A stretch of DNA of 40,380 nt, from positions 1 through 40,380 of IMG/VR virus record IMGVR_UViG_3300010401_000025; one strand, written 5' to 3'. The notes under the pieces are model-generated. The model had not been told where the DNA came from, made no database searches, and saw only the letters and a list, made by a program, of their open reading frames with translations. This document shows positions 1,950 through 40,181 of this stretch, one piece after another (within the stretch, counting starts at the first letter, position 1; each line of letters starts with the position of its first letter). This stretch comes from a virus. Both the position numbers and the translations under genes were made by a program.

Positions 1950-2283
1950 CGGGCGCCTCCGTCGTCTTATTAGTCTCAACTATCGCTGTCGTCAGCCCCG
2001 CCGCTTTAGCCAAGCTACTAATAAAGCTCAACACTTCATTCTGGGCTTTTTCCCTATCATTCAGTGCGCTTAGCACCAATAGAGATCTCATGAATCCCCA
2101 CATAGAGATAAGCTCCGCCCGCCTCTGAATGTGCTCTGCGTTTAGATTCGGAGCGGCAGGCAAGGCGTCGACTAGCTTATCTAGGAATTTACCGTACTCT
2201 TCGCCGCTTGTGAAGCCATATGAATCTAGTAGCGATTGCTCTGGAGGGCTTTGAGTATATAGATCTCTAAAGAATGTATCCAT
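1918..2283 (-). CDS. hypothetical helical protein, 121 aa
   Basis: I use the ATG at 2281-2283 rather than an upstream one, because the extra 50 residues would lie over the zinc-ribbon gene and read as a shadow of it. AAGGGG lies about 7 bases before this ATG. The protein starts MDTFFRDLYTQSPPEQSLLD and continues as a mostly alpha-helical chain with NREKAQNEVLSFISSLAKAAG-like heptads, then a charged tail (TEAPDEDKGPKSIH). Function unknown. Confidence 0.65.
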   Translation of the reverse strand: MDTFFRDLYTQSPPEQSLLDSYGFTSGEEYGKFLDKLVDALPAAPNLNAEHIQRRAELISMWGFMRSLLVLSALNDREKAQNEVLSFISSLAKAAGLTTAIVETNKTTEAPDEDKGPKSIH

Positions 2284-2284
2284 G

Positions 2285-2521
2285 CTAGAACCCCTTGTTG
2301 ATTTTGCCGCAGCATTGGCATATATTCGCCGACACCACGCTAAGCCAGCTCGACTGACAGTAGTCGCACTTGATCCGATAGAACTTAGTAATCGGCGTAT
2401 CAATAATCTCATCCGTAAGGTCAATGATTTCATCCTTCGCTAGCTCCTCTTCAATTAGTTCGGCAATGCAGCTTGTCTTTAGAGCCGCTTGTCGTTTCTT
2501 CATAGCCTCAAACTTATTCAT
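2285..2521 (-). CDS. zinc-ribbon hypothetical protein, 78 aa
   Basis: An acidic N-terminal helix (ELIEEELAKDEIIDL) is followed by a C-terminal zinc-ribbon pattern. This is a CDYC knuckle near residue 53 and a CQCC knuckle near 69, consistent with a single structural zinc. Such small proteins commonly bind nucleic acid or a protein partner. The start ATG (2519-2521) sits in an 8-base overlap ATGAATAA with the stop of the preceding gene. The first five residues, MNKFE, are the same as in that gene. Confidence 0.7.
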   Translation of the reverse strand: MNKFEAMKKRQAALKTSCIAELIEEELAKDEIIDLTDEIIDTPITKFYRIKCDYCQSSWLSVVSANICQCCGKINKGF

Positions 2522-2681
2522 TTGGGTGTAAATTTCTAAGGATAAATAAATTCAATAATATCCAAATTAGGGCTGTTGACCCTATAAGAGGGTAGGAACT
2601 GTTAGTAATTGACAAATATATGACAGCGCTAGTTTGTAATAAAGTACAAAAACTAATTACGATTTTTTCAAATTTATTCAT
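2514..2681 (-). CDS. small two-helix membrane protein, 55 aa
   Basis: A 55-codon frame is locked to both neighbours by identical 8-base overlaps (ATGAATAA at 2674-2681 and at 2514-2521), strong evidence that it is translated. Two hydrophobic segments are visible, about residues 7-25 (IVISFCTLLQTSAVIYLSI) and 32-49 (LIGSTALIWILLNLFILR). An early-expressed inner-membrane microprotein is likely. Its function is unknown; membrane perturbation or superinfection immunity are possibilities without direct support. Confidence 0.65.
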   Translation of the reverse strand: MNKFEKIVISFCTLLQTSAVIYLSITNSSYPLIGSTALIWILLNLFILRNLHPNE

Positions 2682-2838
2682 TGTCTAATTCCTTTAACAT
2701 ATCTAATATAAGTTTTCTTTTTCTATAATAGGTGGATTTCGATATGATACCATACTTAATGCAGTCTAAATATATTTCAATAAAGTCTATGTAAAGTTGA
2801 GCTATTTTTTGCTCATTTTCTTGTTTTCTTTTACTCAT
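2674..2838 (-). CDS. small basic hypothetical protein, 54 aa
   Basis: The frame opens at ATG 2836-2838, inside an 8-base overlap (ATGAGTAA) with the preceding gene. A GGAG lies 11 bases upstream, so re-initiation is likely. The product starts MSKRKQENEQ and carries a possible helix-turn-helix-like stretch (IISKSTYYRKRKLILDML). It ends LDNE at the next 8-base overlap. Family not recognised; a small DNA-binding protein is a guess. Confidence 0.6.
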   Translation of the reverse strand: MSKRKQENEQKIAQLYIDFIEIYLDCIKYGIISKSTYYRKRKLILDMLKELDNE

Positions 2839-2983
2839 TTTCGCCTAACTCCTTGTTTTGTTGCTCCCATTTGTCAATCAACTCCTCACGGCTCCCCACA
2901 TTCTCTTTCTCTAGAAGCTCCGCAAGCTCTATCTCGCTGAGTTGCATAAGGTGATACCAGTAATCTGTTAGGTGCCATTTCAT
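2831..2983 (-). CDS. small acidic hypothetical protein, 50 aa
   Basis: ATG 2981-2983 has an excellent ribosome site (AAGGAGG, 5 bases away) and overlaps the upstream stop as ATGA. The peptide is helical and acidic, with a Trp/His-rich start (MKWHLTDYWYHLM) followed by LSEIELAELLEKENVGSREELIDKW. It looks like a soluble coiled or two-helix protein. No function can be assigned. Confidence 0.65.
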   Translation of the reverse strand: MKWHLTDYWYHLMQLSEIELAELLEKENVGSREELIDKWEQQNKELGENE

Positions 2984-3123
2984 TTGCGCCTCCTTAATAC
3001 GAGAGATAGTGCAGCGTCGAGAATCAACAAGAGAAAGGATATTACGCTGGCGATGATTAATAGAACCATTGCTAGTTGCCCCAAGAACAGATCCACGATT
3101 AGTGTGCCTATGCGGTTAATCAC
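2980..3123 (-). CDS. small membrane protein, 47 aa
   Basis: The frame starts at GTG 3121-3123, within an 8-base GTGATTAA overlap with the 16-aa frame upstream, and ends in a 4-base ATGA overlap with the next gene. The sequence is dominated by one long hydrophobic stretch (about residues 17-42, AMVLLIIASVISFLLLILDA) and ends in a basic LRRRK tail, which should stay cytoplasmic. It looks like a tail-anchored inner-membrane microprotein. Function unknown. Confidence 0.6.
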   Translation of the reverse strand: MINRIGTLIVDLFLGQLAMVLLIIASVISFLLLILDAALSLVLRRRK

Positions 3124-3166
3124 ATAGCACCAGCGCGACTATGAATCCGACTACGAACCAAACCAT
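3116..3166 (-). CDS. possible 16-aa hydrophobic peptide
   Basis: ATG 3164-3166 is preceded by GGAGG at 9 bases and opens a 16-codon frame, MVWFVVGFIVALVLCD, which is almost entirely hydrophobic. It ends in the 8-base GTGATTAA overlap with the next membrane-protein gene. It may be a real transmembrane peptide or simply a translational ramp that delivers ribosomes to the GTG start of the next gene. Length makes this uncertain. Confidence 0.4.
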   Translation of the reverse strand: MVWFVVGFIVALVLCD

Positions 3167-3168
3167 GA

Positions 3169-3348
3169 TTATTTACCTCCGCGACGGCAATAGTCTATAC
3201 GGCGCTGGACACCTTGTGCCTTTGCGATGCGCTCTAGTTCTTCGACGGTCAGCACTTTGATCTTTGAGGCTGGGCGCTTGGCATTAAGTTTTCTCTCTAT
3301 ACGGATCGAATCTACGAAGGTTTGAAGTATGTTCTTCTCTTTACTCAT
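3169..3348 (-). CDS. small basic hypothetical protein, 59 aa
   Basis: I chose the ATG at 3346-3348 because GGAGG lies five bases before it. An ATG four codons upstream would sit on that ribosome site. The product is basic and helical, with SKIKVLTVEELERIAKAQGVQRRIDYCRRGGK at its end written here as two helices around LTVEELERIAK. No family is recognised. Confidence 0.6.
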   Translation of the reverse strand: MSKEKNILQTFVDSIRIERKLNAKRPASKIKVLTVEELERIAKAQGVQRRIDYCRRGGK

Positions 3349-3391
3349 ATTGTCCTCCATGTCTTAATTCTCTCATGTTAGTAAACCAAAG

Positions 3392-3550
3392 TCAAATCCC
3401 TGCCTTGTTGTATGCGTATCTAAACAAATCGAAGTAAAGCCTGGCGTGGTAGCGGGCCTTGTCGCCATCGTACTTAATGAACTTAAGGAACAGCTGTTTA
3501 TACGCAAGTGCTTGATAATAATACTCTAACTGTGTTGGCTGACTATTCAT
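3392..3550 (-). CDS. small aromatic-rich hypothetical protein, 52 aa
   Basis: ATG 3548-3550 lies in an 8-base overlap (ATGAATAG) with the previous gene and has GAGG nine bases upstream. The 52-aa product is rich in Tyr and Lys (EYYYQALAYKQLFLKFIKYDG, then ARLYFDLFRYAYNKAGI), most likely a single helical hairpin. Nothing identifies its role. Confidence 0.6.
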   Translation of the reverse strand: MNSQPTQLEYYYQALAYKQLFLKFIKYDGDKARYHARLYFDLFRYAYNKAGI

Positions 3551-3746
3551 TGCGGTAATCCTCGTAGTTTATGTACATTTCCTGAACCACAAGAGCCCTA
3601 AGCTCGTCTATATTCTTGCGGCTCGTATTGTTAAGGAACTCTACTAACTCAACTTCGTTCCAGCTTTCAATATCTCGTTCAATCTGTTCGTAGAGCTCAT
3701 CATTCATGGCATTGATCTCAGTCTCGATATATAAGTCATAGTTCAT
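3543..3746 (-). CDS. small acidic hypothetical protein, 67 aa
   Basis: The start is ATG 3744-3746, which overlaps the stop of the zinc-ribbon gene upstream as ATGA and has AGGA about 9 bases before it. An upstream in-frame ATG would cover that gene and is disfavoured. The product is acidic and helical (ETEINAMNDELYEQIERDIESW, split by ELVEFLNNTSRKNIDEL). Small acidic phage proteins often act as inhibitors or DNA mimics, but nothing specific supports that here. Confidence 0.6.
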   Translation of the reverse strand: MNYDLYIETEINAMNDELYEQIERDIESWNEVELVEFLNNTSRKNIDELRALVVQEMYINYEDYRNE

Positions 3747-3925
3747 TTGGTTTTCCTTTCTTGACAAGTACATGAATCTTCGGGGCTGATATGGCAATCA
3801 TGCTCATCTATATTTTCTGCGCAATTTAAACAGATTAATTTAGTATCGTCTTTAGGGTCGACTTCGCAACCGTACCAATCTGAATCAATTAAGGTCTCAC
3901 ATATATTGCAAATATAACAGCTCAT
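3743..3925 (-). CDS. zinc-ribbon microprotein, 60 aa
   Basis: The protein has CYICNIC at residues 3-9 and CLNC near residue 32, followed by Cys/His-rich CHISPEDSCTC. This is enough ligands for one or two zinc sites. It is coupled by ATGA overlaps to both neighbours. Small zinc ribbons of this kind are frequent early phage proteins and can bind RNA polymerase or nucleic acids; which applies here is unknown. Confidence 0.65.
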   Translation of the reverse strand: MSCYICNICETLIDSDWYGCEVDPKDDTKLICLNCAENIDEHDCHISPEDSCTCQERKTK

Positions 3926-4113
3926 GATAGCACCTCGTAGTCTTCGATTAATATTATATCATCTTCAAAGTCAATTTTAAACAATCGTGGATTGTTTTCA
4001 GCCCAGTTTAAAACAATATTAATAGAACGTATTTGAGCACTTAGACCGGTTTCTTGTTTAAAAATCTTAGCTAAATTTTCTAAAGTTATGGGTTGATCTT
4101 TTTTGATGTACAT
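3922..4113 (-). CDS. small hypothetical protein, possible winged-helix fold, 63 aa
   Basis: The ATG has AAAGGAGATTTT directly upstream, a good ribosome site. The sequence (ITLENLAKIFKQETGLSAQ, then RLFKIDFEDDIILIEDYE) has a helix followed by a beta-strand pair, compatible with a minimal winged helix. That is only a visual impression. It is one of the first genes of the leftward early unit. Confidence 0.6.
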   Translation of the reverse strand: MYIKKDQPITLENLAKIFKQETGLSAQIRSINIVLNWAENNPRLFKIDFEDDIILIEDYEVLS

Positions 4114-16773: not shown

Positions 16774-17175
16774 ATGGAAATTAACTGGAAAGCAATAATA
16801 CTTCTACTAGGAGTACTCGCCGTCGGGTTGGGTCTTGGATATTACTTTGCGCCAGAAAAAGTTAAAGAAGTTGAGAAGATCGTGGTCAAAGAACACCGCG
16901 ACGTGGTGACAGTTGTCAAAGAGCGACCAGATGGGACTAAAGAGACGGTCATAACTGATCGCACCACCGTAGATACTGATAAGACTAAAGAGCGCGAAGT
17001 GACGAGGGATAAGAAGGACTGGATCTTAACAGCAGGAGCAATTAACGATGAATTGGCTTTTACTAATCCAAAATATTTTGGTCTTGTTCAGAAACGCATT
17101 CTCGGAGAAATCTACGTCGGTGGCATGCTCACAACCTCTGGTGAATTTGGCCTCGCCCTCACGTACCGATTCTAA
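16774..17175 (+). CDS. membrane-anchored spanin-like or lysis-cassette protein
   Basis: The 133-aa product has one N-terminal membrane helix (residues 7-25, AIILLLGVLAVGLGLGYYF) followed by a charged, repetitive, helical or beta stalk (VKEVEKIVVKEHRDVVTVV, ETVITDRTTVDTDKTKE). The C-terminal part ends GEFGLALTYRF, a pattern like a beta-barrel terminal strand. An inner-membrane spanin is plausible from position between the holin-like and M15 genes, but no lipobox or Rz motif confirms it. Its end lies 13 bases before the endolysin start. Confidence 0.55.
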   Translation: MEINWKAIILLLGVLAVGLGLGYYFAPEKVKEVEKIVVKEHRDVVTVVKERPDGTKETVITDRTTVDTDKTKEREVTRDKKDWILTAGAINDELAFTNPKYFGLVQKRILGEIYVGGMLTTSGEFGLALTYRF

Positions 17176-17188
17176 GATAACCCTCGAT

Positions 17189-17557
17189 ATGTACTTCGCC
17201 AAAAATAACGCCCAGAATTACCCCAATGATTGGAAAGACATCTATTATACTAACGCCGCAGACCTTCTTGGGCGGGTAAACCCTCTCCTCGAAGAAATTG
17301 GCGCTACTAAGCCTGTCGTAAATAGCGGTTGGCGCCCTTCTAGCTATAACGCTCGTATCGGCGGAGCCCCACACTCTAATCATATCACCTGCAAGGCCGT
17401 AGACCTTAATGACCCTTTTGGAGGCCTTAAGTCTTTAATCACTGCAGAGTTGTTAGAGAAGCATGATCTGGCAATGGAACACCCAGATGCAACACCTGGT
17501 TGGTGTCATCTACAGACAGTCCTGCCGGCGAGTGGGCGAAGGATATTTAAACCTTAA
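17189..17557 (+). CDS. M15-family D,D-/L,D-peptidase endolysin
   Basis: The 122-aa protein carries the M15 zinc-site pattern. SNH near residue 65 and AVDLNDPFG (Asp 72) supply the H-x6-D pair, and WCHLQ (His 107) the third ligand. The preceding VNSGWRPSSYNARIGGAPHS block is typical of the peptidase M15_3 group. Such enzymes cut peptidoglycan cross-links or stem peptides for lysis. The length fits a bare catalytic domain with no cell-wall-binding part. The ATG at 17189 gives the domain. The frame is open upstream, but that region lies over the previous gene and no strong ribosome site is seen. Confidence 0.85.
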   Translation: MYFAKNNAQNYPNDWKDIYYTNAADLLGRVNPLLEEIGATKPVVNSGWRPSSYNARIGGAPHSNHITCKAVDLNDPFGGLKSLITAELLEKHDLAMEHPDATPGWCHLQTVLPASGRRIFKP

Positions 17558-33688: not shown

Positions 33689-33867
33689 AGTAATCCTAAA
33701 AGTTGAAGGCCATAGAAAAAAGAAACACATAAACTAAGGGCGATAGCTATTATAAACAGTCTTACAATGATCTCATACAGACCAATTTCACGCACCACAA
33801 TTATTGCCGCGTATGAACATATAGAACTTATTGGAAGCATTAATAAAATACCTAAGATAGTTTTCAT
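33685..33867 (-). CDS. small two-helix membrane protein, 60 aa
   Basis: I use the ATG at 33865-33867, which overlaps the stop of the lipoprotein gene as ATGA. Two hydrophobic helices are evident, residues 3-25 (ILGILLMLPISSICSYAAIIV) and 33-58 (IIVRLFIIAIALSLCVSFFYGL). It is likely an inner-membrane protein expressed with the lipoprotein. No family recognised. Confidence 0.6.
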   Translation of the reverse strand: MKTILGILLMLPISSICSYAAIIVVREIGLYEIIVRLFIIAIALSLCVSFFYGLQLLGLL

Positions 33868-34079
33868 TGTTGGACTTCGCATCCTTTAGGGCCGTGGCCT
33901 TTATTTTTGCAGATAATTACTACGGTATCGCTGGGGACTTCGACTTGCGTTCCGTCATCACATGAGATCAAGGCCCCGCCGTCTGTGGGGGAGACTGCGC
34001 ATGACGTGCCATCTTTCCCGTCGCCGCATGCTGTGATCATTGAGATTAAGATGAGAATGAAACATAAGGACTGAAACAT
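33864..34079 (-). CDS. small lipoprotein, 71 aa
   Basis: A signal sequence (FILILISMITAC) places the lipidated Cys at residue 18. The mature part starts GDGKDGTSC and continues ALISCDDGTQVEV, a short Gly/Asp/Cys module that I associate with surface lipoproteins of several Gram-negative groups. The start has the full AAGGAGGT ribosome site five bases upstream, just after a stable hairpin, so high expression is likely. It lies with another lipoprotein and membrane proteins in one block. Confidence 0.7.
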   Translation of the reverse strand: MFQSLCFILILISMITACGDGKDGTSCAVSPTDGGALISCDDGTQVEVPSDTVVIICKNKGHGPKGCEVQQ

Positions 34080-34874: not shown

Positions 34875-35568
34875 AGTCGTCAAATATCTCTAGGCTAAAG
34901 GTTGTTGCGAATCCGTTGCGATCGATGTATTTAGGGTCGATAGAAGTGTTGACAGAGAGTTTATCTGAGTTCTTTACACGCACCTTATACTTATCGTATT
35001 CGAACACCAAGAACTGAGCGTCGGAGCATTTTCCTTGGAGGGTCGTTCTGAAGCCTCCACGCCCTGCCGGTTCGAATGAGACCTGATTGGTTCGGGCATC
35101 TTCGATCTCTTTGATGTGAGCATTTATGATAAGATTGCAGGGGAGGGCTTGGAGGAGGTTCCAAATGTAGAGAAGCTTGTCGCCGATGACGGTGAAGACT
35201 TCATACTTATTAGACTCTTGAGTGCCGGTTTCGAGTTTCTCGCCGCGATATTCTACGTAGATCATGTCATTGAGGGCAGTGAAGGTGTCGATGCAAACAG
35301 TCGCATAATCTTCGCCACCGTTATCTTTTAGCTTCTTGAGGCGAGTAATGAGATCTTTAGTTGAGCCGAAGCTCTCTGTGACGACTTTGTCTTTCCAGTC
35401 GGCCCCGAGCTTTAGCTCTGCGGGGGGATTGCGTAGAGCGCCATATGACTTTTGATCTAGATCGAGAATGAGGAGTTTACCGAAGCGGGTGGCGCTGAGG
35501 GTGCGTGTTGTTTTGCCGGCGCCGCTGTAGGCGATCTGCATAAGGGTGAAGCGTTTTAGGAGATTCAT
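34858..35568 (-). CDS. Sak4-like RecA-type ATPase (AAA_24 family)
   Basis: The 236-aa protein has Walker A AYSGAGKTT at residues 13-21, LLILDLDQK (strand 2) near 32-40, Walker B-like TVCIDTFTAL near 89-98 and LIINAHIKE near 145-153. This is the pattern of phage Sak4/AAA_24 single-strand annealing ATPases. They pair ssDNA and work with an SSB partner, here the downstream gene. GAGG lies 7 bases before the ATG, which overlaps the stop of the secreted protease gene. Confidence 0.8.
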   Translation of the reverse strand: MNLLKRFTLMQIAYSGAGKTTRTLSATRFGKLLILDLDQKSYGALRNPPAELKLGADWKDKVVTESFGSTKDLITRLKKLKDNGGEDYATVCIDTFTALNDMIYVEYRGEKLETGTQESNKYEVFTVIGDKLLYIWNLLQALPCNLIINAHIKEIEDARTNQVSFEPAGRGGFRTTLQGKCSDAQFLVFEYDKYKVRVKNSDKLSVNTSIDPKYIDRNGFATTFSLEIFDDYAFKR

Positions 35569-36797
35569 TGGACTACCTCATAGTAATCATCTGCCAGACC
35601 GTAGCGGATTGCTAGGTCTGATGGGATCATACCACTTCGATCGCCAAATTGCAAGAGCAATTCGAATGTCTCAGGTTTGAGACCAAGAGCAGCGGCGGTT
35701 TCGTCATAGAGTTTAGAGAGAGTAAAGCCGACCCATATGCTTTGGACAGGATTCAATGTAGCAGTGATTGTAGCGTGGTGAAACATCAAGAGGCTTTCTT
35801 TTTGGACATAAACCTTGTCGCAGTATGCTGTGAGAAAGGCCGCAGCAGATTGGGCTAGTTTTCCTACATAGCATTCAGATGGGAGTCTGCTGTACTTAAG
35901 AGCCATGATTAGATTCTCTAGGGAATAAACATCGCCGCCTGGAGAGTTTATATAGATAGGAAGGACCGATTGATTTTTGTTGGCAAGGATCTCATCGATA
36001 GTTTTTAGAGCGGTTTCTGGAGTAATGCGGCCGAGCACTGCCGGAATGCGAAGAAATTCTTTTTCGCTGATCTTGACTTGCATTCGGGGATCGATATCGA
36101 ACAGACCTCTGTCTTCCCTAAACTCTCGGTCGACCTTTTTCTCGTTAAGCTTAGTGGGATTGTCGAGATGGAAATAGTCGTAAGCGATACCATTCACGAA
36201 GCCGGCCGTTGCAGAATCCTCGTAGTCAAACCATGCTTCGTCATCCCTCATGGCGAGATAATCAGCTTCGGACATACCTAGTTGAGCCGCCAAAGCCTTC
36301 TCAATTTTGGCTAGATACCGGTCTAGGAATATGAAGCGACTACGGACTTGTTCGCTGTCTCCGCCGACGCTATAGCTAGCTTTATGGAACATCAAGAAAC
36401 TCCCAAAAGTCATATAACTCTCATCGCAGTAAGAGACAATGATAGCGGCCATTGAAGCGGCTACACCGTCGACGACGCATGTTAGTTTTAGGCCGAAATT
36501 ATCTCTAGCACCATGAATCGCATTTATGAAACGTAGCCCCGCAGAGACCGAGCCGCCAGGGGATGAGATTTCGAGATAGGCTCGTTTGACGCCTTTTTCG
36601 CTAAAGGTTTTGAGTTGCTCAATGAGGGGATCGATTGTGTATTCGTCGACTTCTTCGGTGAGAGACATGATGAGGGCTGGGTTGGTGTCCTTGAAGGACT
36701 TATAGGTGAGAGGAAGCGGCGCGGCTGAATATTTTTGGGTGTCTGAGGCGATTGCTGGGCTAGATAACAAGAGAGCGATAATTGCGGCGTATTTCAT
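35565..36797 (-). CDS. secreted tandem ClpP-like serine protease, 410 aa
   Basis: Residues 1-18 (MKYAAIIALLLSSPAIAS) form a signal peptide without a lipobox, predicting export to the periplasm. Two ClpP/SDH-type domains follow. Domain 1 has SSPGGSV near 78-84, Ser 115 in GVAASMAA, His 138 in LMFHKA and an Asp near 185. Domain 2 has NSPGGDV near 284-290, Ser 317 in LAQSAAA, His 340 in LMFHH and Asp 386 in FGDRSG. Both triads look intact, and matched cysteines (107/124 and 309/325) are suggestive of disulfides. ClpP is normally a single-domain cytosolic enzyme, so an exported double form in a replication operon is remarkable. Target unknown. Confidence 0.8.
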   Translation of the reverse strand: MKYAAIIALLLSSPAIASDTQKYSAAPLPLTYKSFKDTNPALIMSLTEEVDEYTIDPLIEQLKTFSEKGVKRAYLEISSPGGSVSAGLRFINAIHGARDNFGLKLTCVVDGVAASMAAIIVSYCDESYMTFGSFLMFHKASYSVGGDSEQVRSRFIFLDRYLAKIEKALAAQLGMSEADYLAMRDDEAWFDYEDSATAGFVNGIAYDYFHLDNPTKLNEKKVDREFREDRGLFDIDPRMQVKISEKEFLRIPAVLGRITPETALKTIDEILANKNQSVLPIYINSPGGDVYSLENLIMALKYSRLPSECYVGKLAQSAAAFLTAYCDKVYVQKESLLMFHHATITATLNPVQSIWVGFTLSKLYDETAAALGLKPETFELLLQFGDRSGMIPSDLAIRYGLADDYYEVVQ

Positions 36798-36808
36798 TGG
36801 CTTCCTTT

Positions 36809-36934: not shown

Positions 36935-37817
36935 TTTCGAACTCGACGGAGAAGCCGCGGAAGGAGGGTTTGGTTTCGTACTCATTCTTAATTACTATAG
37001 CACGTTCTTGTGGGAGATTGCAACATATTTTTCTATAGTCACATTTGTCGCCCAGCGTACAGGCGCAGTTAAATCGGCCAGTTTCTATATCCTCTTGAAT
37101 TCGTTGGGCGTCCTTTACTAAGGCGGCATGCCATTCGTTGACTGCCTCTGAGGTCGGCGTGTATGAGAACTCTAAGAAGAGGGGCGGGCGCTGTTTTTCA
37201 TCGCCAGCTCGATTCTTAGGGATATATGTTGGATCTAGGAGCTTTTGATCGGTTGAGATGCCTCGAAAGGTGAATGTCTCTGCAGCATGCCCGGCTTGCC
37301 ATGCGAGCCATAGATAGCCCAGTGCTGCGTTGTTAGGGTTAGAGGTCAAGGAGAGATCGAAGTAGAGATGCTTGGAGCTGGTCTTGAAGTCCATTATGAT
37401 GGGTGGCTCTGATAAGATGAGTTTATCTATGTGGCCTACATAGGTCACCACCTCAGTAAGCGGCGCTGAGAGTTCAAGTTCGCTGAGAGCGTTTTGTGTG
37501 GGGGGAAAGGCGGCTGCGTATTGGGTGATGAGTTCGATGAGGTGCTCTTTGCTGCGGAGACCTTTTTCTGGTAGTTGGGGATACTCTGAGAGGACTTGCT
37601 CGAGGAGAAGGGCGATATCACCCTTTTCAGGGGTATATAGTTCTTCAAAGCGGTGAAAAGCTTGGCCGAAGTCGAGAGGAGGACCATAGCGGACTGTGCG
37701 AGCAACTGGTCGGGGGGTGATGCCCAGGACGTATGAATAGTAAAATGCGCGGGGGTTTTTGCGCCAGGCGGCGATAGAGGTCGCACTTAGTGTAAGCCGC
37801 TTGAGACGTTTAATCAC
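36927..37817 (-). CDS. PD-(D/E)XK nuclease, Cas4/RecB-like, with Cys cluster
   Basis: The protein (296 aa, GTG start at 37817 within a GTGATTAA overlap) has LTLSATSIAAWRKNPRAFYY at its start and FGQAFHRFEE. The nuclease core is VGHIDKLI with MDFKTSS near residues 155-161, the D..D(F)KT form. A C-terminal cluster CACTLGDKCDYRKICC probably holds an iron-sulfur cluster. This is the Cas4/AddB-like layout. Such phage enzymes degrade DNA ends for recombination or host takeover. It lies with the recombination genes, so a role in strand resection is likely. Confidence 0.82.
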   Translation of the reverse strand: MIKRLKRLTLSATSIAAWRKNPRAFYYSYVLGITPRPVARTVRYGPPLDFGQAFHRFEELYTPEKGDIALLLEQVLSEYPQLPEKGLRSKEHLIELITQYAAAFPPTQNALSELELSAPLTEVVTYVGHIDKLILSEPPIIMDFKTSSKHLYFDLSLTSNPNNAALGYLWLAWQAGHAAETFTFRGISTDQKLLDPTYIPKNRAGDEKQRPPLFLEFSYTPTSEAVNEWHAALVKDAQRIQEDIETGRFNCACTLGDKCDYRKICCNLPQERAIVIKNEYETKPSFRGFSVEFENE

Positions 37818-38334
37818 AGATGCCGTGCTTTCGGCATTCGTCCGGCGTAAAATACCTATTGCGGTCGATCTTTTTCCAGAACTCGGCAGGCTTTGCGGAG
37901 TGTGAGGCGAGTAACTCTATACGGATCTTTTCGAGGCGATTTATTTCTTTTGCTTCGATGCGAATGTCCGGTGCGGAGGCTTCAAGCCACATTGAAACGG
38001 GGTGAATCATTACACAGGCAGTGTCTGTCATGTATCGTTTGTCCCCGGCGAGATAGATTATTGCGGCAATTGAGGCGACGATGCCAGTACCGATTGTAAT
38101 CACGTCTACTTGGAGACTCATTAAAGTGTCATATATTGCGAACCCTCCGTAGACGTCCCCGCCTATAGAATTTATATAGACCTTGATGGGTTCTTCACTT
38201 TTGGCTTCGAGATATTTAAGAGCCCTAATTACCCTACCGGTCAAGGCGTCGTCAATCTCATCGTCGATGTAGATTGTGCGATTTGCGAGATCTATGCCGT
38301 TATCGAATAGGTGAGTGAGGGAGTCGATTGACAT
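37810..38334 (-). CDS. cytosolic ClpP-like serine protease, 174 aa
   Basis: A single ClpP-type domain, with NSIGGDVYGGFAIYD near residues 55-69 (the usual SPGG is SIGG here), Ser 88 in GIVASIAA, His 111 in VMIHPVS and Asp 157 in KIDRNRYFTPDE. The triad appears complete and there is no signal peptide. ClpP in phages is mostly a prohead protease, but this one is in the early replication module and far from the capsid genes. It may remodel host proteins or pair with host Clp ATPases. The gene is 8 bases overlapped with the nuclease gene. Confidence 0.82.
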   Translation of the reverse strand: MSIDSLTHLFDNGIDLANRTIYIDDEIDDALTGRVIRALKYLEAKSEEPIKVYINSIGGDVYGGFAIYDTLMSLQVDVITIGTGIVASIAAIIYLAGDKRYMTDTACVMIHPVSMWLEASAPDIRIEAKEINRLEKIRIELLASHSAKPAEFWKKIDRNRYFTPDECRKHGICD

Positions 38335-38369: not shown

Positions 38370-38562
38370 GCTTTTCTATGGCGCTTAGGATGGTGTTTTC
38401 GGCGAGCCCGAGGTCTTTGGCGAGAGAGTTTATGGAGAAAGGGCGGTCTTTTTTCTTGACTTTTTTGTAAACATATGCTTTCTGCGCGGCGATGCGATCC
38501 TCAACGAATTCCCGTAGCTCTTTATCGGACATGATGAGTATATTAGGACCTATGGTTTTCAT
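38347..38562 (-). CDS. small helix-turn-helix protein, 71 aa
   Basis: The C-terminal half, FSINSLAKDLGLAENTILSAIEKLDKL, has the spacing of a winged-helix or HTH reader. The N-terminal half is basic (AAQKAYVYKKVKKKDR). It starts with an ATGA overlap on the diphosphohydrolase gene. It could regulate early transcription, for example by binding the ATAC-type sites at 4.4 kb, but nothing links them directly. Confidence 0.6.
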   Translation of the reverse strand: MKTIGPNILIMSDKELREFVEDRIAAQKAYVYKKVKKKDRPFSINSLAKDLGLAENTILSAIEKLDKLDSK

Positions 38563-39023
38563 TTCTTTGACTCACGACTATCTTGTCCTAAGCCTTCGGT
38601 GGCATATTCATAAAGAAAAGCGGCGCAGCAGAATGCGTGGGCCCAGTGGGGGAGCCCTGTATCTGCGTCGACTGTTTCGTTGAGAGTGAGCGGATAATAA
38701 TATACGTGGCGTCTAAATGCTGAGAATAGACGTATGTAGCTGAGCCCTTTGCGGTAATTAAGGAGGCCGTATTTTTGGGCGCCGAACTTAAGTACGCTTA
38801 ATATGCTCTGCAGATCATTATTAGAGTTGATTAAGATGTTCTGCAGGACAAGTTTTAGTGACTCTATGTCGTTGCGAAGCCAGAATTCATCCATCTGGTG
38901 AGAGAGAGCATATAAGAACGCTGCCTCTCCCTTTCCAGATCGGAGGTCGGCGCGCCACCATGTGTCGGTGCGGCCGAGGTAGCCGAGTTCAGGTTTGTTA
39001 GAATCATCCTTTTTACCGGTCAT
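38559..39023 (-). CDS. dATP/dGTP diphosphohydrolase-like protein (MazZ/DUF5664 type)
   Basis: The 154-aa protein opens KKDDSNKPELGYL and has LKFGAQKYGLLNYRKGLSYIRLFSAFRRHVYY, split here as KFGAQKYG and RLFSAFRRH. It ends DTGLPHWAHAFCCAAFLYEY. This is the pattern of the phage dATP/dGTP diphosphohydrolase N-terminal domain family (PF18909, formerly DUF5664), in which MazZ-like members cleave purine dNTPs to the monophosphate. It would act in the cytoplasm on nucleotide pools. Overlaps neighbours by ATGA on both sides. Confidence 0.78.
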   Translation of the reverse strand: MTGKKDDSNKPELGYLGRTDTWWRADLRSGKGEAAFLYALSHQMDEFWLRNDIESLKLVLQNILINSNNDLQSILSVLKFGAQKYGLLNYRKGLSYIRLFSAFRRHVYYYPLTLNETVDADTGLPHWAHAFCCAAFLYEYATEGLGQDSRESKK

Positions 39024-39217
39024 TTTTTAGGGTCCCCACATGGGATATCGAGGTCTATGCCTAAGCTTTTCCAGTCTTCGTCCGTAAAGTCGAGACTGTA
39101 AGGGTTAGGGATTTCGGGGTCGTTCTTTGAAATCGCGGGGACTTCGGCGTCGCATTCGGGGCAATACATCGACGAGAACAAGGGCTTGAGGCAGCATTTG
39201 TGTTTAGGGCAGATCAT
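39020..39217 (-). CDS. zinc-ribbon microprotein, 65 aa
   Basis: The start MICPKHKCCLKP and MYCPECDAEVPA supply two Cys pairs in zinc-ribbon spacing. The C-terminal half is acidic (LDFTDEDWKSLGIDLDIP). The gene overlaps the kelch lipoprotein by 14 bases and the diphosphohydrolase gene by four. A protein-binding or nucleic-acid-binding ribbon is likely. Function unknown. Confidence 0.65.
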   Translation of the reverse strand: MICPKHKCCLKPLFSSMYCPECDAEVPAISKNDPEIPNPYSLDFTDEDWKSLGIDLDIPCGDPKK

Positions 39218-40181
39218 AGCTCAGTGCTCCAATTTGAATCACATTAAGTTTGTTGCTTGTTGCAGGCAAGAGAGCCTCGCCGCCAACTATGTAGATGAGG
39301 TCTTCGTTGAGAGAGATTTGGATGTCGTTTGCGGCTTGAGGCATCACTATGTCTAGTTGAGTGATTTCGTTTGTGTGCATGTTTAGATCGAAGATTAGGT
39401 TGCTGTATTCATAAGTTTCGGGGACTGTGGGGTAGGCGTATGAGCCGCCCATTATGAGAACATGATTGTTCCACACAATAGAAGCCATCCCGCTGAGTCC
39501 AATAGGAAGTTCAGCGATGCGAATCCAGGCCTGGCCGTCAAGTTTGTAGATACCGCGGTGATAATCTCTAGTTCCATCGTTTGCGGGATAAAAGCCGCCG
39601 TAGATGTAGGGCTCGCCTTTGTAGGTGAAACCGTCGGCGTGAGTTGTGGGGCCCTCTGGCATCTTTGTTTCGAGTTCGATCCAGCGGTTAAAGAGGGGCT
39701 GATAGAGTTCGAGAGAGTCTGTTGCGGTGTCTAGGGGCCCGTTATAGCCTCCGCCTATGAGGACATCTCCGTTGGGCAGTGTGTTGAGAGAGAATGAGAG
39801 ACGAGGAATACGTGGAGTCGGCAAAGTATTTACCATTCCGTTTAGATTGACTTTGAGGAATGAGGATTGTGCTTCCATGCCTTTGCGGCCGCTAATTACA
39901 TATAGACTGTCATTTAGAGCAAAGCCTTTGGTGTATGCGCGGTCAAAGTCTGTGTCAATCGTCTCTACAGTTCCGAGAGGACCAAACTTGACGAGAGCGG
40001 AGCGTTCTTCCCAGGGGAATCCCATGCCGCCAAAGATAACTAATCCTTCGTTGGGTATGTAGGCCTGGGCCATGCCGGATGCGTGGAAGGGCATTGTGGT
40101 TGTGGTCCAGTCGATGTGGACTAGGCGTTCATCGGCTCCGCATGCGGCGAATAATAGGGCCCCGATTAATAAGGGTTTCAT
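39204..40181 (-). CDS. kelch-repeat beta-propeller lipoprotein, 325 aa
   Basis: The first 14 residues (MKPLLIGALLFAAC) are a lipoprotein signal, with Cys 14 the lipidation site; position -3 is Phe, slightly atypical. Kelch-like units follow, each with a strand ending in GG or SG: VIFGGMG, YVISGRK, VLIGGGY, YIYGGFY, VLIMGGS and YIVGGEA. Together they make six blades, as in a closed kelch propeller, and aromatic residues follow the glycines. A kelch propeller on a lipid anchor is most likely a surface or periplasmic binding protein. No phage family is known to me. A role in receptor blocking or superinfection exclusion is inference. It starts with ATGA coupling to the junction gene. Confidence 0.75.
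   Translation of the reverse strand: MKPLLIGALLFAACGADERLVHIDWTTTTMPFHASGMAQAYIPNEGLVIFGGMGFPWEERSALVKFGPLGTVETIDTDFDRAYTKGFALNDSLYVISGRKGMEAQSSFLKVNLNGMVNTLPTPRIPRLSFSLNTLPNGDVLIGGGYNGPLDTATDSLELYQPLFNRWIELETKMPEGPTTHADGFTYKGEPYIYGGFYPANDGTRDYHRGIYKLDGQAWIRIAELPIGLSGMASIVWNNHVLIMGGSYAYPTVPETYEYSNLIFDLNMHTNEITQLDIVMPQAANDIQISLNEDLIYIVGGEALLPATSNKLNVIQIGALSYDLP

Follow-up and report, generated by a model that had tools for sequence, protein, structure and literature searches.

Locus and tandem gene

The window, that is the whole stretch of DNA analysed, corresponds to an IMG/VR virus record in full (40,380 bases). On its minus strand it carries a gene for a tandem ClpP-like protein that is predicted to be exported (Table 1); the open reading frame, its strand and its length are confirmed. 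The Shine-Dalgarno sequence of the gene, AAGGA at positions 36803-36807, is rated as good and lies 5 nt ahead of the ATG. The N-terminus of the protein, MKYAAIIALLLSSPAIA followed by SD, has a basic n-region, a hydrophobic core (mean hydropathy 3.23) and an Ala-x-Ala motif, and cleavage probably occurs after Ala17 or Ser18. Signal-like N-termini were found in 3 of the 43 window genes, the tandem gene among them, with a loose, home-made heuristic that also scores about 8% of random N-termini as positive; the recurrence of signals in homologues is for this reason the stronger support for export. The signal peptide proposed initially is thus consistent both with the N-terminal layout, as far as the heuristic goes, and with the signals of the homologues, export itself being a prediction. 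Genes for replication and recombination (PD-D/EXK exonuclease, Sak4-like and SSB-like) surround the tandem gene, which is adjoined by a gene for a small membrane protein. A second, single-domain ClpP-like protein is encoded nearby, and the lysis pair of the window (16774-17557) does not adjoin the tandem gene. Two other products of this phage appear to be exported, a 71-aa putative lipoprotein (33864-34079, ITAC/GDGKDG) and a kelch-repeat protein of 325 aa that carries the lipobox FAAC (39204-40181). Genes resembling those for dATP/dGTP pyrophosphohydrolase (38559-39023) and dNMP phosphatase (427-1110) suggest editing of the nucleotide pool by the phage.

Table 1. Positions of the tandem gene, its parts and the related genes. 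Positions are those of the window unless preceded by the L number of another record.
Feature	Position	Strand	Basis or remark
Exported tandem ClpP-like protein, 410 aa	35565..36797	-	ORF, profiles, domain alignment; export predicted
Predicted Sec signal peptide MKYAAIIALLLSSPAIAS, residues 1-18	36744..36797	-	Layout and signals in homologues
ClpP domain 1, ~residues 41-214: GGS loop 81-83, Cys107, Ser115, Cys124, His138, acid Asp186/Glu187	36155..36677	-	Profile, alignment, model
Inter-domain linker, ~residues 215-241	36074..36154	-	AlphaFold; low confidence in model
ClpP domain 2, ~residues 242-410: SPGGD loop 285-289, Cys309, Ser317, Cys326, His340, Asp386/Ser388 at acid position	35568..36073	-	Alignment, model
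Small membrane protein, 58 aa	36809..36985	-	Ends 12 nt before tandem gene; no family
Second single-domain ClpP-like protein, 174 aa, no signal, no Cys pair	37810..38334	-	Profile, tree
N-terminal-TM protein of lysis block, 133 aa	16774..17175	+	34% identical to product of gene directly after exported ClpP in L155
Endolysin, phrog_894	17048..17557	+	44% identical to L155 endolysin (Peptidase_M15_3)
Non-exported partner ClpP-like gene	L021:3575-4441
Non-exported partner ClpP-like gene	L058:5813-6649
Non-exported partner ClpP-like gene	L060:6407-6988
Non-exported partner ClpP-like gene	L147:127-969
Exported ClpP-like gene	L026:5023-5760		Signal-bearing or lipoprotein
MlaD/MCE gene	L026:3969-5081
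Exported ClpP-like gene	L037:1467-2198		Signal-bearing or lipoprotein
MlaD/MCE gene	L037:320-1399

Domains, catalytic residues and cysteine pairs

The profile PF00574 (CLP_protease) matches the tandem protein in two stretches (89.4 bits against a cut-off of 20.2, E 3.5e-25), and the two domains align with each other at 31% identity (E 2e-13; z = 20 over shuffles). AlphaFold gave a ClpP fold for domain 1 with a pLDDT of about 97 and for domain 2, modelled alone, with 86, and Foldseek places both domains on ClpP structures (TM 0.79 for domain 2; 0.85 of target for domain 1). The two ClpP-like domains recognised in the initial annotation are therefore confirmed by profile, mutual alignment and predicted fold. 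In the full-length AlphaFold model domain 2 is poor and the two domains are not placed relative to each other; this model is unreliable in domain 2 because all of the alignment rows fell on domain 1.

The Gly-rich loops lie at residues 78-84 and 284-290. Ser115 and His138 of domain 1, as well as Ser317 and His340 of domain 2, align with Ser and His columns that were checked for losses and are invariant over 45 homologues. The acid column of ClpP is occupied in domain 1 by Glu187, preceded by Asp185 and Asp186, and in domain 2 by Ser388, with Asp386 two residues earlier. Homologues carry Glu (L021, L056, L057) or Asn (L058) in this column, and the bacterial proteins L026 and L037 carry Ala, with Asp one position before. 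Domain 2 also has Ser-Ala in place of a nearly invariant Ser-Met. A Gly-rich loop, Ser, His and Asp had been assigned to both domains; the loops, Ser and His hold, but two complete Ser-His-Asp triads are an overstatement, since domain 2, to judge from the alignment, probably has no acid at the canonical place. Of the two active sites, that of domain 1 (Ser115-His138-Asp186/Glu187) would be the better preserved, whereas domain 2 may form the weaker half of the enzyme or a structural half. A missing GER motif in the axial loop was rejected as a distinguishing mark, nearly all phage ClpPs being without it.

An exported but catalytically weak or dead protein, in which domain 2 or both domains would form a binding or inhibitory scaffold (serving, for example, superinfection exclusion or capping an envelope protease of the host), would suit the changed acid and Ser-Met positions of domain 2 and its branch length, the greatest in the tree described below, and it has a parallel in the bacterial paralogues L046, L053 and L054, which keep their signals and have apparently lost Ser/His signatures. 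The retention of Ser and His in both domains argues against such a protein, which is considered unlikely.

The matching cysteine pairs noticed at the outset, Cys107/Cys124 and Cys309/Cys326, are spaced identically around the Ser residue (C-x7-S-x8-C). In the models, the strand that leads into the Ser-bearing helix holds the first Cys of each pair, and the second comes right ahead of the following strand. Because those strand ends are neighbours in a parallel beta-alpha-beta unit, the models make disulfides Cys107-Cys124 and Cys309-Cys326 plausible.

Exported relatives and clade placement

The whole tandem protein, used as a query, gave no close relative in viral or genome contigs, and neither did the DNA polymerase or the terminase of the window phage in the contig scans, so that the phage is regarded as an orphan. 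A scan with a two-row alignment of the domains was likewise unsuccessful. A pattern based on the shared Cys/His region matched viral contigs 22 times, with L021 as the only real match; the match in L025 was rejected as chance. L021 is a phage contig of 112 kb and encodes a 242-aa protein with a signal sequence, one ClpP domain and the same Cys pair. The DNA polymerase and RecA-like genes of L021 (78-1937 and 9667-11673) have apparent intein insertions. A second pattern matched genome contigs 18 times, mostly by chance, and recovered the bacterial proteins L026 and L037, both with the same Cys pair and with a signal or lipoprotein sequence; L026 is from a Deltaproteobacteria MAG (Myxococcota by NCBI name). 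A strong match was present in 5 of the 189 genomes sampled from Myxococcota, and the single match among 398 sampled genomes of Pseudomonadota was an ordinary ClpP adjoining ClpX. Profile scans of IMG/VR brought the count of exported members in phages to at least twelve. Signal-bearing single-domain relatives were found in phages (L021, L056, L057, L058, L147, L154, L155, L059, L060, L151, L107, L080) and in bacteria (L026, L037, L050-L052). The bacterial proteins L046, L053 and L054 are also signal-bearing and ClpP-like, and have apparently lost Gly-loop, Ser or His signatures; they are possible non-catalytic paralogues.

The tandem architecture was found in the window protein only, among 139 distinct ClpP-like open reading frames. 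The initial annotation knew of no exported tandem ClpP in phages; the tandem arrangement is unique in this set, but export is not, single-domain exported proteins occurring in other phages and in bacteria. The C-x7-S-x8-C pair was present in 11 of 15 exported ClpP-like reading frames versus none of 124 others. With the window protein and the rows selected by the Cys pattern left out, the counts are 7/11 versus 0/124 (Fisher p 2.4e-9, a value that overstates the association of Cys pair and export because the tree holds only about two independent origins of export). The exported members devoid of the pair are L059, L151, L060 and L080. By sequence, the window protein is a member of a small group, apparently not described before, of secreted, Cys-paired relatives of ClpP in phages and in some bacteria of Myxococcota or soil type. 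No exported or tandem phage ClpP is described in the literature searched, which covered few subscription journals.

A tree of 53 rows places both window domains with ten exported proteins (support 95/90) and the head-maturation proteases in a separate clade. The exported group was kept when more exported rows were included (93/86), with long branches that make the exact place of domain 2 unsure. A constraint that makes the two domains sisters is not rejected (AU 0.54). Domain 2 has the longest branch in the tree and has diverged faster than domain 1.

These placements bear on the reading of the protein as a prohead (head-maturation) protease whose domain has been duplicated and whose N-terminus is hydrophobic by coincidence. 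Head-maturation proteases (NF045542, phrog_94/133/2976) are the nearest annotated sequences, with about 30% identity over one domain, and give the best PHROG matches; the tandem protein scores 126.3 against the NF045542 cut-off of 120, a score summed over two stretches, and the structural genes of the window include no other recognisable prohead protease. The head-maturation proteases are, however, single-domain proteins without a signal sequence, made with portal and capsid genes, and the portal and terminase genes are some 10 kb or more away from the tandem gene, which belongs to the replication cluster. The signal and the Cys pair recur in the relatives of the tandem protein and in no head protease seen. 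Forcing the tandem protein into the head-protease clade is 22.6 log units worse (AU p 0.042, a weak rejection), and the grouping with prohead proteases for which a check had been suggested was not found. A role in head maturation is accordingly held to be very improbable.

The second ClpP-like protein of the window clusters with non-exported ClpP-like proteins of L060, L021 and L058 (92/86; 94/92 with more rows). An exported ClpP-like protein is paired with a related non-exported one in five phages, namely the window phage, L021, L058, L060 and L147; the other records with exported ClpP that were tested, several of them short fragments, gave no clear match of the partner type. The triad acid is Asn in the window copy of the partner.

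The exported ClpP gene is flanked by small membrane proteins in L021, L057, L058 and L147. In the distant relative L155 it stands between a weakly XhlA-like gene and genes for a TM protein and an M15 endolysin. The location is thus envelope-flavoured but variable, with membrane or lysis neighbours in some phages and a replication cluster in the window. A specific role in lysis, in which the protein would sever links within the envelope when infection ends, in the manner of a spanin or an auxiliary lysin, would agree with the L155 cassette, whose TM protein and endolysin are homologous to the lysis pair of the window, with the XhlA-like gene upstream in both L154 and L155, and with a coiled-coil TM neighbour in L058 that has weak Rz-like matches. 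Such a dedicated function is nevertheless rather doubtful, as the gene lies in replication or packaging regions away from the endolysin in the window, L021-type phages, L060 and L080. In L107 the exported ClpP-like gene (1021-1572) is followed just downstream by genes for a ClpX-like AAA+ protein (2067-3083) and an SbmA/BacA-like ABC transporter (3165-4082).

Comparison with known proteases and proposed role

ClpP is known from the cytosol (or from organelles) as a chamber that needs an unfoldase driven by ATP, and from phages as a capsid protease. Both tandem domains share with ClpP (MEROPS S14, PF00574) the fold, the Gly-rich loop, the placement of Ser and His and the handle helix. The tandem protein differs in its predicted export, the fusion, the Cys pairs and the shifted or replaced acid, and no ClpX/ClpA-type ATPase (AAA_2, PF07724) was found in the window record. 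SppA (S49) is an envelope protease of the same superfamily, and in E. coli it has a tandem two-domain form. It relies on Ser-Lys chemistry and a membrane anchor, whereas the tandem protein keeps His at the ClpP position in both domains and reaches 43.2 bits with TIGR00706 (SppA), below the cut-off of 155.45; the distinction from Ser-Lys SppA drawn initially is supported by this score. SppA of B. subtilis is a single-domain octamer and gives resistance to lantibiotic peptides (PMC7568657). The N-terminal domain of NfeD1b (PF25145), a membrane protease of the ClpP class, gives a weak match (41.7 bits in total for two stretches, cut-off 40), far weaker than that of PF00574, and the tandem protein has neither an NfeD domain nor C-terminal membrane segments. 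The exported single-domain proteins (L057, L021, L037, L026 and others) share the signal sequence, the Cys pair and the clade, and differ in having one domain. COG3904 is a periplasmic ClpP-like group. The bacterial genes of L026 and L037 differ further in lying directly upstream of an MlaD/MCE gene, and a link between ClpP-type proteolysis and phospholipid transport is possible in bacteria of this type.

The tandem protein is interpreted, with somewhat more confidence than doubt, as a Sec-exported, disulfide-bearing serine protease of S14 fold that would need no Clp ATPase and would act in the envelope of the host, its likeliest job being the trimming of envelope proteins or peptides in takeover or lysis. 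Once the signal is removed, each ClpP domain would fold and its Cys pair would link two adjacent strands at their starts, around the helix that bears Ser. Duplication of an exported protein with one domain is the probable origin of the tandem form; SppA would offer a parallel, being a one-domain octamer in B. subtilis and having two domains in E. coli. Domains fused in side-by-side pairs cannot complete a ring of seven, and the expected assembly is therefore a ring of even number, a pair of unlike rings or a small oligomer. The Clp ATPase of the host would be out of reach for an enzyme in the periplasm, whose proteolysis would be ATP-independent. Since the tandem protein belongs to the secreted ClpP group, ClpP chemistry is probably used outside the cytoplasm, where it has no ATP-driven Clp partner. 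Takeover or lysis of the host envelope is the leading guess for the role in infection, with exclusion or peptide defence as alternatives. Receptors and host stress sensors, proposed initially as targets, are speculative candidates. More tentatively, and with less confidence than doubt, some phages may run ClpP in two compartments, with one enzyme in the cytosol and an exported, disulfide-stabilised one working free of ATP in the periplasm; in the window phage the latter would be a fused two-domain form with a symmetry that ordinary ClpP cannot have.

A secreted, Cys-paired ClpP branch that phages share with bacteria of Myxococcota type, and that includes one tandem protein, would be a case of the fold at work as an ATP-independent envelope protease. 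The tandem protein would also offer a direct test of how a ring protease of seven-fold symmetry can be remade out of fused pairs.
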